NCBI GenBank assembly: GCA_947588645.1
Contig: CANPYO010000017.1
Span: 1-33,937, forward strand
Direction of reading: 5' to 3'
Source: an uncultured Akkermansia sp.
GTDB lineage: Bacteria > Verrucomicrobiota > Verrucomicrobiia > Verrucomicrobiales > Akkermansiaceae
Length of the DNA stretch: 33,937 bases
Shown piece after piece: positions 72-30,968 of this stretch (position 1 is the stretch's first letter; each line of letters opens with the position of its first letter). Both the position numbers and the translations under genes were made by a program. A model generated the notes under the pieces. It ran no database searches. It saw only the letters and a program-made list of their open reading frames with translations, and had not been told where the DNA came from.

Positions 72-214
72 ATGCGGCGCGCCAGAGGCGCGGGGAGGCG
101 AAAGCGACCGACGGCCGTAAGGTCGATCAGCCAAAAGCGCAGCTTTTGCTCCGCAGGGGTAAGGAGTCTTGTGGCGACTCCGAAGCAAGCGCCGATGGGG
201 CGGCGCTGAGTCAA
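72..214 (+). repeat. Modular hairpin repeat array (D-type), copy 1
   Basis: Contains GCGAAAGCGACCGACGGCCGTAAGGTCGATCAGCCAAAAGCGCAGCTTTTGC...GGAGTC..GACTCCGAAGCAAGCGCCGATGGGGCGGCGCTGAGTCAA, closely matching 12712-12888 and 26965-27112. Confidence 0.85.
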
Positions 215-897: not shown

Positions 898-1054
898 GCC
901 GTCGACAGTTTTGTCTGTTGGAATCGCATGAGGAATGCGAGACACTCCACTTGCCTCCGCGCAACGCGCGCAAGCTTTGCAATCGTACATAGGCGGCGCC
1001 TCGCATTTGCCCCGCCAAATTCGCGCGTACGCGCGCTCACTTTCTAAATCGTAC

Positions 1055-1131
1055 AAAACTGCCGACGGCTGTTTGGACAAAAGCGCAGCTTTTGTCCACA
1101 GGGCTCGCTGGCAGGGTGGTGCCAGTGAGTC
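1055..1131 (+). repeat. Modular hairpin repeat (D-type), short variant
   Basis: AAAAGCGCAGCTTTT followed by CTCGCTGGCA-GGGTGG-TGCCAGTGAG; the latter recurs at 26545 and 26911. Confidence 0.75.
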
Positions 1132-1194
1132 ATCGTACCTCGTACATCGTACATAGGCAAACGCATTTTCTAATGTGTTTGCCTTGTTCCTCAC

Positions 1195-6345: not shown

Positions 6346-6589
6346 CGCGACTCTTCAGACGCTGAAAATAGCCTCTGAAGAATGATAAACCATTTATAAT
6401 TTACGATTTACGATTGACGATGTGCGATTCAGAAAATTCCCGCGCTTGCGCGCGAGTTGGCGAAGTTTGCCGTCTTGCCGGCTTACTTCCTTCGTCCATA
6501 GGTAACGCATGGGAAATGGGGTGAATGAGCCCGGAGAAAATTATATTGGGACGCGTGCGCTCAAAATGAGCAAAAAGGGGAAAATTCGC

Positions 6590-10225: not shown

Positions 10226-10476
10226 GATTATAGCGCGCCGAAGGCGCGGGCTATGCGAAAGCCTTAGCTAAGGGGGAGGGTGAAATCATGGATGGTTATT
10301 GGTTAGAGAGGTGTCGAATTTTGCGGAGCCGTGTCTCCGGCTTTGCTACATCGTACATGGACGCCGTCAGGCGCCCCCGTCTCGCCTCCCCGCAAGTTTC
10401 GCTCGCCGAATTACCTAATCGTAAATGGGTCACGTTTTTTCTTGGGACAGATGGGGGCCATAAGACCCTTCCCCAG

Positions 10477-10699
10477 GGCAAACGCATTTGAGAGAAGGTC
10501 ATCAACAGAGAAAATGCCCTTATTGACTGATATCTCTCTTTATACGCATCAAAAATCATGACAACAAGAGATCATCATGATGATGGCTCCAAAGGGATCT
10601 CAGCATACATTAATGATCTGAAAAAATCTGCGCAACACGCACATTATTAATAAATCGTAAATCGTAAATCGTAAATCTGACTCCTCTCAAATGCGGTTT
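10477..10699 (+). mobile_element. MITE-like repeat REP-A, copy 1
   Basis: Ends GGGCAAACGCATTTGAGAG...CTCTCAAATGCGGTTTG; body shared with 12535, 21681 (inverted) and 26597. Confidence 0.75.
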
Positions 10700-12421: not shown

Positions 12422-12532
12422 GCTTTCAGAAAAAATCGAGTAGGGGACTTTCACACGTGTCCCAAGAAAATTTGGCTCCGCTTCCCGCCGCTTTGTAACG
12501 CTGTCCGTGCGTGGCTTCGTGAACTCCCTAGG

Positions 12533-12718
12533 ACAACCGCATTTGAGAGAAGTCAATTAACAGAAAAATACTCTTATTGACTGATATCACTGTTTATACG
12601 TATCAAAAACCGTGATAACCAGTGGTCATCATGATGATGGCTCCAAAGGAATCTCAGCATACATCCATGATCTGAAAAAATCTGCGCAACGCGCACATTA
12701 TTAATAAATCGTACAAAA
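12533..12718 (+). mobile_element. MITE-like repeat REP-A, copy 2 (right end separated by D-type array)
   Basis: aaccgcatttgagagaagtcaat...attgactgatatcactgtttatacg...tctgcgcaacgcgcacattattaataaatcgta. Confidence 0.75.
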
Positions 12719-12888
12719 CTGCCGACGGTGTAAGGCAGATTGGACAAAAGCGCAGCTTTTGCCCCGCAGGGGCGAAAGCGACCGACGGCTGTAAGGTCGA
12801 TTAGCCAAAAGCACAGCTTTTGCCCCGGAGGGGTGAGGAGTCGTGAGGCGACTCCGAAGCAATAGGCAATGAGGTGCCTACGAGTCAA
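12712..12888 (+). repeat. Modular hairpin repeat array (D-type)
   Basis: AAAAGC-GCA-GCTTTT, AAAAGC-ACA-GCTTTT, GGAGTCG-TGAGG-CGACTCC, then GACTC...TAGGCA-atgagg-TGCCTA-cGAGTC. Confidence 0.85.
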
Positions 12889-12911
12889 CGTACATCGTAC
12901 CTCGTACATAG

Positions 12912-12940
12912 GCAAACGCATTTCCTAATGCGTTTGCCCT
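12912..12940. repeat. Terminal hairpin of REP-A
   Basis: GGCAAACGCATT-TCCT-AATGCGTTTGCC; similar hairpins near 1157, 21683, 26811 and 30938. Confidence 0.8.
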
Positions 12941-15375: not shown

Positions 15376-15573
15376 GAAAAGCATTCTCATGCACGACGGA
15401 GGCAGACGGGGTCTGCCCATGTACGAGGTACGATTTGGAAAGTGAGCGCGTGTTGCGCGGATTTTTTCGGATCATTAACGCATGGGAAATGGATTGAATG
15501 AGATCGGAGAAATTTTATTGGGACACGTGTGGTTTTTGAGTTGATGCAAATGTGCTTGTCCTGCAAAATTAAG

Positions 15574-21658: not shown

Positions 21659-21680
21659 GAATGAAACAAGTTACCACAGG

Positions 21681-21911
21681 GCAAACGCATTAGAAAATGC
21701 GTTTGCCTATGTACGATTTACGATTTACGATTTATTAATAATGTGCGCATTGCGCAGATTTTTTCGGATCATTAATGTATGCTGTGATTCCTTTAGAGCC
21801 ATCATCATGATGACCGCTGGTTATCACGGTTTTTGATACGTATAAACGGTGATATCAGTCAATAAGAGCAATTTCTCTGTTGATTGACTTCTCTCAAATG
21901 CGTTTGCCCTA
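21681..21911 (-). mobile_element. MITE-like repeat REP-A, copy 3 (inverted)
   Basis: Reverse complement of the 26597-26832 type element, ending caaatgcgtttgccc. Confidence 0.8.
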
Positions 21912-22149
21912 CCAGTTACCATATACAATGCACGACACGCGTGTCCCAATAAAATCTTCTCCGGGCTCATTCAACCCATTTCTTCGCGTGTGGGATGCGA
22001 GACACACCACTTTCTTTCGCGCAACACTCGCTAGCTTTGCAGTCGTACACCGTACTTCGTACATAGGCGCCGCCAGGCGCCACCGCCATCGTCTTCGAAA
22101 ATTCTGCTTTGCTTTTATTTCGCAGAAACGCGCGAAGCGTGCTAGCATT

Positions 22150-24839: not shown

Positions 24840-25068
24840 GCCAACCCTTTACAGGGGGGAGCAAAGGATGTAACATAGCTTTTCAGAAAAGTCAAGTGGT
24901 TTTGTGAGCAAAACCACATCCGTCCCAAGAAAAAGCCTGCCCATTTACGATGTACGATTTGGGAATAATGCGCGCGTTACCGACGGCAAAGTAGTGCGTC
25001 TCGCATTCCACACGCGAAGAAATGGGTTGAATGAACACGGGGGAAATTTTATTGGGACACGTGTGCGG

Positions 25069-26234: not shown

Positions 26235-26458
26235 CTTTTTTTGCGGTGCTCAAAATGCAAACATGACTTGCTGCCCACATCCGCCCCACGGCCCCATGCA
26301 ACCGTCTTGCGGCTGCTCATTTACGATTTCCGACTTGCAAAATTCGGCGAGAAAAGCTCGCGGGGAGGCAAAGCAGAGGCGGAGCGGAATTTGAAAACGG
26401 TGCGCGGGAATCGTTAGGAAGCGGCGGGGGCGGGGGCAGCGAAACGCCGCCTATGTAC

Positions 26459-26575
26459 AAGACGCCCGACGGCCCCGTTTAGGGTGCTCGCGTCAGCGGG
26501 CAGTGAGGGCGGTTGGACAGCGCGACGGCGCTGCCCCGCAGGGGCTCACTGGCAGGGTGGTGCCAGTGAGTCAAG
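26459..26575 (+). repeat. D-type hairpin module, GC-rich variant copy a
   Basis: gacggccccgtttagggtgctcgcgtcagcgggcagtgagggcggttggacagcgcgacggcgctgccccgcaggggctcactggcagggtggtgccagtgagtcaa. Confidence 0.85.
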
Positions 26576-26596
26576 ACGCCCGACGGCCCCGTCAGG

Positions 26597-26832
26597 GCAA
26601 ACGCATTTGAGAGAAGTCAATCGACGGAGGAAATGCTCTTATTGACTGATTTCACTGTTTATACGCATCAAAAATCATGACAACAAGAGATCATCATGAT
26701 GTTGGCTCCAAAGGGATTTCAGCATACATTAATGATCCGAAAAAATCCGCGCAACGCGCACATTATTAACAAATCGTACCTCGTACATCGTACCTCGTAC
26801 ATAGGCAAACGCATTTTCTAATGCGTTTGCCT
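26597..26832 (+). mobile_element. MITE-like repeat REP-A, copy 4 (most complete)
   Basis: GGGCAAACGCATTTGAGAG...AATGCGTTTGCC, flanked on both sides by gacggccccgt. Confidence 0.8.
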
Positions 26833-26835
26833 TGA

Positions 26836-26940
26836 CGGCCCCGTTTAGGGTGCTCGCGTCAGCGGGCAGTGAGGGCGGTTGGACAGCGCGAAGACGCTGC
26901 CCCGCAGGGGCTCACTGACAGGGTGGTGCCAGTGAGTCAA
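26836..26940 (+). repeat. D-type hairpin module, GC-rich variant copy b
   Basis: Near-identical to 26459-26575 with changes in hairpin loops. Confidence 0.85.
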
Positions 26941-26964
26941 AGCCCCCGAGGGCTCGGAGGGGGA

Positions 26965-27112
26965 TTGGACAAAAGCACAGCTTTTGCCCGAAGGGCGAAA
27001 GCGACCAACGGCCGTAAGGTCGATTAGCCAAAAGCGATAGCTTTTGCCCCGAAGGGGTAAGGAGTCGTGAGGCGACTCCGAAGCAAGCGCCGATGGGGCG
27101 GCGCTGAGTCAA
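26965..27112 (+). repeat. D-type modular hairpin array
   Basis: AAAAGC-ACA-GCTTTT, GCCC-GA-AGGGC, AAAAGC-GATA-GCTTTT, GGAGTCG-TGAGG-CGACTCC, GACTC...AGCGCC-gatggggc-GGCGCT-GAGTC. Confidence 0.85.
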
Positions 27113-27267
27113 GGTACGATGTACGATTTGAATGCTAGCGCGCCTACGGCGCGAGGAAGCAGGTGGTGTGTCTCGCATTCCACACGCGAAGAAATGGGTT
27201 GAATGAGCCTGGAGAAGACTTTATTGGGACACGTGTGTGAAACGCCAAACATTTTTTTAATTATCTC

Positions 27268-27299: not shown

Positions 27300-27415
27300 A
27301 CTCCTGCAAGGTCCCATAGGACCGTTAAATCTATGTGGGCTGGTCATTGAACCAAGCTCGTGGTGCGTTGCAGGCGCACTTAAAGGGGCAGCGATTTCGC
27401 TGCCCCTTCCTTTTT
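27300..27415 (+). ncRNA. Candidate novel structured small RNA with predicted pseudoknot and intrinsic terminator
   Basis: Promoter upstream; hairpin GGTCC-CATA-GGACC (27310-27323); stem 27337-27344/27351-27359 with bulged A; hairpin GTGCG-TTGCAGG-CGCAC (27363-27379) whose whole loop complements 5'-terminal CCTGCAA (27303-27309); strong terminator. Confidence 0.6.
27383..27415 (+). terminator. Intrinsic terminator of the ncRNA candidate
   Basis: AAGGGGCAGCG-ATTT-CGCTGCCCCTT followed by CCTTTTT. Confidence 0.9.
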
Positions 27416-27508
27416 GCATGGAAAGCGAGTTGCATGGGCTTGGAGAAGATTTTATTGGGACACGTGTGTTTTTAAATACAATTTGCCGAGGAATGGCGAT
27501 ATTTAGGA

Positions 27509-30935: not shown

Positions 30936-30968
30936 TAGGCAACCGCATTTTCTAATGCGTTTGCCTTG
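30936..30968. repeat. Terminal hairpin of REP-A (solo)
   Basis: GGCAACCGCATT-TTCT-AATGCGTTTGCC next to cgtaaatcgtacata. Confidence 0.7.

Follow-up and report, generated by a model that had tools for sequence, protein, structure and literature searches.

Small mobile elements of Akkermansia with a four-hairpin single-strand fold: an apparently undescribed family

Rickettsia palindromic elements (RPEs) are small palindromic repeats that are dispersed intergenically and also occur as in-frame insertions within protein genes (PMC10969869). BOX elements of Streptococcus pneumoniae are modular, hairpin-forming, array-forming dispersed repeats with one module variable in number (PMC3049150). The CGTC-type REPs are short palindromes without a dedicated transposase (PMC3733652). 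The features given for MITEs are AT-richness, target duplications, and inverted repeats at the termini (PMC3049150).

The window analyzed in this study is a contig of 33,937 nucleotides from the 2.49-Mb MAG of an uncultured Akkermansia sp., a genus also indicated by named matches to the D module. For the hairpin array found in this window, a better description is that of a mobile four-hairpin element. Very probably, its hairpins are parts of a non-autonomous mobile element of about 84-91 nt, with the four-hairpin fold kept in one strand. The literature searched contained no description of this repeat for Akkermansia, and this small mobile-element family, defined by its single-strand fold, is apparently undescribed.

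Likened by description and not by sequence, the Akkermansia unit would work most like RPEs, being also inserted in frame in protein-coding genes (RHS). RPEs, however, are about 150 bp long and occur in varied metabolic genes, whereas the units analyzed here are 84-91 nt long, have constant loops and covarying stems, and are found in RHS genes and group II introns. The likeness to BOX elements is architectural only: the modules are different, and here it is the D module that varies in number. The words "compensatory" and "covaria" are absent from the text of PMC3049150. REPs with GTAG or CGTC tags are single hairpins of 20-40 bp with the tag unpaired at the terminus, whereas the Akkermansia unit has four hairpins and a GARKCAA tail. 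Moreover, GTAG-type REPs are associated with the RAYT (Y1) transposase, which is absent from the element-rich Akkermansia clade. Thus, neither a single tagged hairpin nor a RAYT in the genome was found, and assignment to REPs was rejected. Like MITEs, the unit is small, non-autonomous, folded, and dispersed, but none of the three MITE features (terminal inverted repeats, target duplication, and AT-richness) was found, and the unit was not assigned to MITEs either. The first 12 nt of the matched units and the reverse complement of the last 12 nt agree at no more than 6 of 12 positions, mostly 2-4, and the G+C content is mostly 0.53-0.72.

The clean minimal form of the unit, found in related species, can be written as AAA-[A]GACGGCTGTAA[A']-[B]-[C]-TGA-[D]-GARKCAA. 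In its four successive hairpins, A, B, C, and D, the loops are constant, as are the linkers between them and the single-stranded tail GARKCAA. Hairpin A has the loop GACGGCTGTAA, hairpin C is formed by CCCC/GGGG, and hairpin D is built around GTGRGG. The stems of hairpin B include CAAAAGC/GCTTTTG, CAGAAGC/GCTTCTG, CAAACGC/GCGTTTG, CAAACCGC/GCGGTTTG, CAGCGC/GCGCTG, and others. In the clade of the source genome the D hairpin is doubled (D1-GAAGCAA-D2-GAGTC), and the extra D2 has several compensated sequence classes. The three modules of the preliminary description were found with exactly the sequences given there (Table 1); each is the 3' arm of D1 together with D2, i.e., the duplicated 3'-terminal hairpin of the unit. 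The outer stem GACTC/GAGTC proposed for these modules is spurious, because GACTCC belongs to D1 as its 3' arm (GGAGTCG..CGACTCC) and GAGTC is the unpaired tail, which varies freely: across species it is GAGTC, GAATC, GAAGC, or GAGGC, with no matching changes upstream. In the minimum-free-energy fold of positions 12720-12888, D1 and the inner D2 stem are formed instead of the outer stem. The terminal variant reported at 26545-26570 is present as described and represents another D hairpin.

Table 1. Four-hairpin units and their D modules in the window. Unit coordinates and bit scores were obtained with covariance model R1, except for the 26834..26940 copy, which was located as a direct repeat and by sequence.
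Feature	Position	Strand	Details
Unit A-B-C-D1	99..188	+	98.5 bits; tail GAAGCAA 182-188; D1 163-181
Module of the preliminary description	176..212	+	D1 3' arm 176-181, GAAGCA, tail GAGTC 208-212; sequence and pattern match
D2 stem of the 176..212 module	188-193 / 202-207	+	AGCGCC / GGCGCT
Diverged unit	1053..1133	+	40.4 bits; D hairpin CTCGCTGGCA 1104-1113 / TGCCAGTGAG 1120-1129
Partial unit, A-B then C hairpin	12716..12761	+	34.8 bits, model positions 4-50
Unit A-B-C-D1, top score	12773..12862	+	114.2 bits; D1 GGAGTC 12837-12842 / GACTCC 12850-12855
Module of the preliminary description	12850..12886	+	D1 3' arm, GAAGCA, tail GAGTC 12882-12886; sequence and fold of 12720-12888
D2 stem of the 12850..12886 module	12863-12868 / 12875-12880	+	TAGGCA / TGCCTA
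Unit with extended A hairpin	26457..26574	+	36.8 bits; D hairpin CTCACTGGCA 26545-26554 / TGCCAGTGAG 26561-26570
Second copy of the 26457..26574 unit	26834..26940	+	Direct repeat, 94% identity to 26468-26587; A without 5' arm
Partial unit, A-B	26940..26986	+	33.4 bits, model positions 4-50
Unit A-B-C-D1	26996..27086	+	107.1 bits; D1 27061-27079
Module of the preliminary description	27074..27110	+	D1 3' arm, GAAGCA, tail GAGTC 27106-27110; sequence and pattern match
D2 stem of the 27074..27110 module	27086-27091 / 27100-27105	+	AGCGCC / GGCGCT

Other repeats were also observed in the window. A second dispersed family of about 200 nt is located at 10474-10673, 12528-12727, and 26593-26792 on the forward strand and at 21711-21910 on the reverse strand; its copies, 75-91% identical and present in both orientations, often adjoin four-hairpin units. 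A 28-nt near-perfect palindrome, GGCAAACGCATT..AATGCGTTTGCC, was found at 1156-1184, 12911-12939, 21680-21708, 26804-26832, and 30938-30966, usually 3' of short direct repeats of the CGTACAT type. A dispersed motif, GTTGAATGAGCC..TTTTATTGGGACACGTGTG, occupies positions 6513-6560, 15492-15532, 25026-25066, 27198-27238, and 27429-27469 and, inverted, 21935-21982. The Rfam 15 scan of the window revealed no family at the units; the only matches, all away from them, were two tRNAs and DapZ below threshold. The DapZ match (27325-27415, 26.6 bits at a gathering threshold of 56) is probably due to chance.

In the whole genome, a search for the pattern GACTCCGAAGCA-N(10-40)-GAGTC yielded 34 exact matches, and the reversed control yielded none. 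Among these copies, the D2 stem is AGCGCC/GGCGCT in 12 and TAGGCA/TGCCTA in 13; the remainder are near-variants, including ACCGCC/GGCGGT, TGGGCA/TGCCTA (G.U), and TAGGCA/TGCCTG (U.G). The replacement of the inner stem with pairing kept, proposed from these two main classes, was confirmed: four stem pairs are compensatory in register, namely 2-19 (GC/TA/CG), 3-18 (CG/AT), 5-16 (CG/GC), and 7-14 (GC/AT), and pairs 4-17 and 6-15 are constant. In one more class, GAGGCA/TGCCGA (locus L062 and copies in genome G025), two facing pairs are changed to tandem G.A mismatches, which are not Watson-Crick.

Covariation was assessed against a tree-aware null, in which substitutions were redistributed on a FastTree tree, by an R-scape-style re-implementation (our own script, not R-scape). 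The expectation that a larger alignment would show covariation beyond phylogeny held for the whole unit in many species, but not per pair for the D2 hairpin alone. For D2 (62 unique sequences), the best structural pairs had E-values of 0.7-2, within the tree-aware null; its fraction paired was 0.894, with a null mean of 0.616 and maximum of 0.790 (500 null alignments). For the A hairpins, gathered by the loop and a motif downstream of it rather than by pairing, the top four pairs were all structural, with E-values of 0.07-1.0; the fraction paired was 0.844 vs. a null maximum of 0.703. The whole-unit set included 148 matches from many species, corresponding to 125 distinct rows and 26 pairs (116-125 distinct units over the tests). 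In this set, 95.1% of cells were paired, compared with at most 46% for slid structures, and 24 of the 26 pairs were changed on both sides. In the tree-aware test, the fraction paired was 0.934 vs. a null maximum of 0.688 (200 null alignments). The 12 top-covarying column pairs were all structural, ten of them at E<=0.025; the exact E-values are approximate because the null came from our own script and the structure of the model guided the fitting of the whole-unit alignment. Covariation was present in all four helices, with up to 14 pair-to-pair double changes at one base pair. The stems change in matched pairs and the loops do not change, which shows that evolution preserves the folded shape of one strand. 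The suggestion of the preliminary description, that a folded structure is under selection or constrains copying, is thus supported by whole-unit covariation far above the tree-aware null.

The compensatory look could alternatively be a phylogenetic artefact, if a small number of ancestral hairpin types had been passed on or exchanged as whole blocks. This holds for the D2 hairpin taken alone, given its per-pair E-values. For the full unit it is highly improbable: numerous double changes lie on separate branches, ten pairs pass the above E-value, and units at a single group II intron site differ compensatorily between species, which is the cleanest case of paired evolution.

Half-way states of the stems were used for identification of the folding strand. 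For the whole unit, 57 G.U and 17 A.C distinct-stem events were found (p 3e-6), and model-free counts with loop-anchored patterns for the A and D hairpins gave 26 G.U vs. 9 A.C. For the control, the unrelated 28-nt palindrome in the same genomes, the G.U:A.C ratio was 13:11. No difference is expected for a symmetric DNA palindrome; therefore, one strand, the one written here, folds. The asymmetry points to a strand that may act as RNA or single-stranded DNA, the G.U/A.C test being blind to which. It also bears on the alternative that the hairpins are pure DNA palindromes, in which replication template-switching (quasi-palindrome correction) recopies one arm from the other with no selection on a fold. 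Template-switching accounts for wholesale stem replacement with few intermediates, as between TAGGCA/TGCCTA and AGCGCC/GGCGCT, and recombination among dispersed copies could swap hairpins too, mixed stems such as ACCGCC/GGCGCT being found. Nevertheless, this process is strand-symmetric, so that equal G.U and A.C counts would be expected, and it leaves the constant loops, linkers, and tail, as well as the precise-site dispersal, unexplained. Hence we regard it as unlikely.

Several low-copy species have the unit within group II intron domain I, with Rfam RF02001 adjoining; near units in relatives, this host intron was the only Rfam match. Several species have same-family introns that lack the unit, and both forms coexist in G074 and G076, the filled copy in G074 being presumed from intron-like translation around the unit. 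In the empty intron, GAAGAAC is directly followed by AACTGCGG, whereas the filled one reads GAAGAAC[AAAGC...GAAGC]AACTGCGG, with an insert of 84-87 nt. Filled and empty sites thus differ precisely by the unit, which has been mobile on an evolutionary time scale. Since same-family introns are empty at the exact junction, the possibility that the unit is a native fragment of domain I was ruled out. A conserved single-copy RNA gene was suspected from single-copy high scorers, but these represent the intron insertion. The filled intron is located 3' of at least six unrelated terminator hairpins; therefore, the intron has apparently moved along with its passenger. Two 95% identical group II intron copies in G388 share one unit (L423, 1048-1135; L424, 1083-1170), which lies antisense in an apparent RT gene, as judged by translation, and interrupts it with a stop.

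Insertions were also found in RHS genes. Of the RHS paralogues in G026, one has the sequence NDRSE-IIHATR, and another has an in-frame addition of 29 residues at this point. Other RHS insertions occur at different points and in both orientations. All of them keep the ORF open, and the length is divisible by three in 9 of the 9 listed, which is modest evidence for frame selection because 52% of all units are divisible by three and some insertions share ancestry. Outside Akkermansia, the putative host genes, as read from flanking translations, are those of an intron RT, an IS110-like transposase, an integrase-like protein, and an RHS protein; several of them are broken. Insertion is precise, AAA...GARKC, with the site continuing with A (usually AA). 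No clear target site duplication was found, and the empty and filled introns and RHS genes fit insertion without duplication; because the element begins with A, a duplication of 1 nt (A), or of AA at some sites, would look the same.

Among intergenic copies, 48 are located between divergent genes and 14 between convergent genes. This enrichment, together with the conserved fold, would agree with a host-beneficial cis-regulatory or small RNA, repeated by chance and selected for host function. Divergent spacers, however, are generally longer, and between co-directional genes no orientation is preferred (24 vs. 27, counts that are noisy because they include palindromic anchors). In addition, copies lie within RHS genes and group II introns, and many species of the genus have none; a host RNA of this kind is therefore very unlikely.

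The element is present in many gut species of Akkermansia: the covariance model matched 45 of 76 Akkermansia species and six genomes outside the genus, with 388 genomes of the phylum Verrucomicrobiota sampled; no matches were found in the large complete Akkermansia genomes sampled. In the scan of genome contigs with the module pattern, the informative matches belonged to rabbit-gut Akkermansia, and scattered matches in unrelated taxa were presumed to be due to chance. No exact-pattern match was found in viral contigs, nor any in plasmids with one query, which is weak evidence against transport by viruses or plasmids. Genes for Y1 (RAYT-like) transposases were found in 50 of 76 Akkermansia genomes, but the Y1 domain (PF01797) is absent from G000 and the whole element-rich clade, and mobilization by Y1/RAYT was rejected on these grounds. 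No reverse transcriptase (PF00078) was found in G000, G025, G026, G091, G092, G093, G095, G001, G003, or G084, MAGs whose incompleteness could hide one; an element with its own reverse transcriptase, or a SINE-like one mobilized by it, was rejected, as no such gene was found in the element-rich clade.

For the mobile element preferred here, an enzyme supplied in trans would recognize the fold as its unit. Copies would be inserted as AAA...GARKC before A, with neither clear target duplication nor terminal inverted repeats, into intergenic DNA, domain I of group II introns, and RHS genes. The paired stem substitutions would arise because propagation or tolerance of the element requires one strand to fold, as RNA or single-stranded DNA. 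We propose tentatively, as a possibility that falls a little short of even, that the main conserved information of this bacterial element is the four-hairpin single-strand fold, with loops constant and stems freely replaceable, and that an enzyme recognizes this fold and inserts the element precisely without target duplication, also into other mobile elements, for example group II introns, which keep their mobility with the insert.

Descriptions of small dispersed palindromes are usually based on sequence; in the present case, as covariation over four helices and the filled and empty sites show, it is the fold and not the stem sequence that is inherited. Inheritance of the fold offers a way to test how repeats of this kind are recognized and moved, and the covariance model is ready for finding units in Verrucomicrobiota. 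The filled introns are a natural case of a group II intron whose mobility was apparently retained with a foreign insert of 84-87 nt in domain I.
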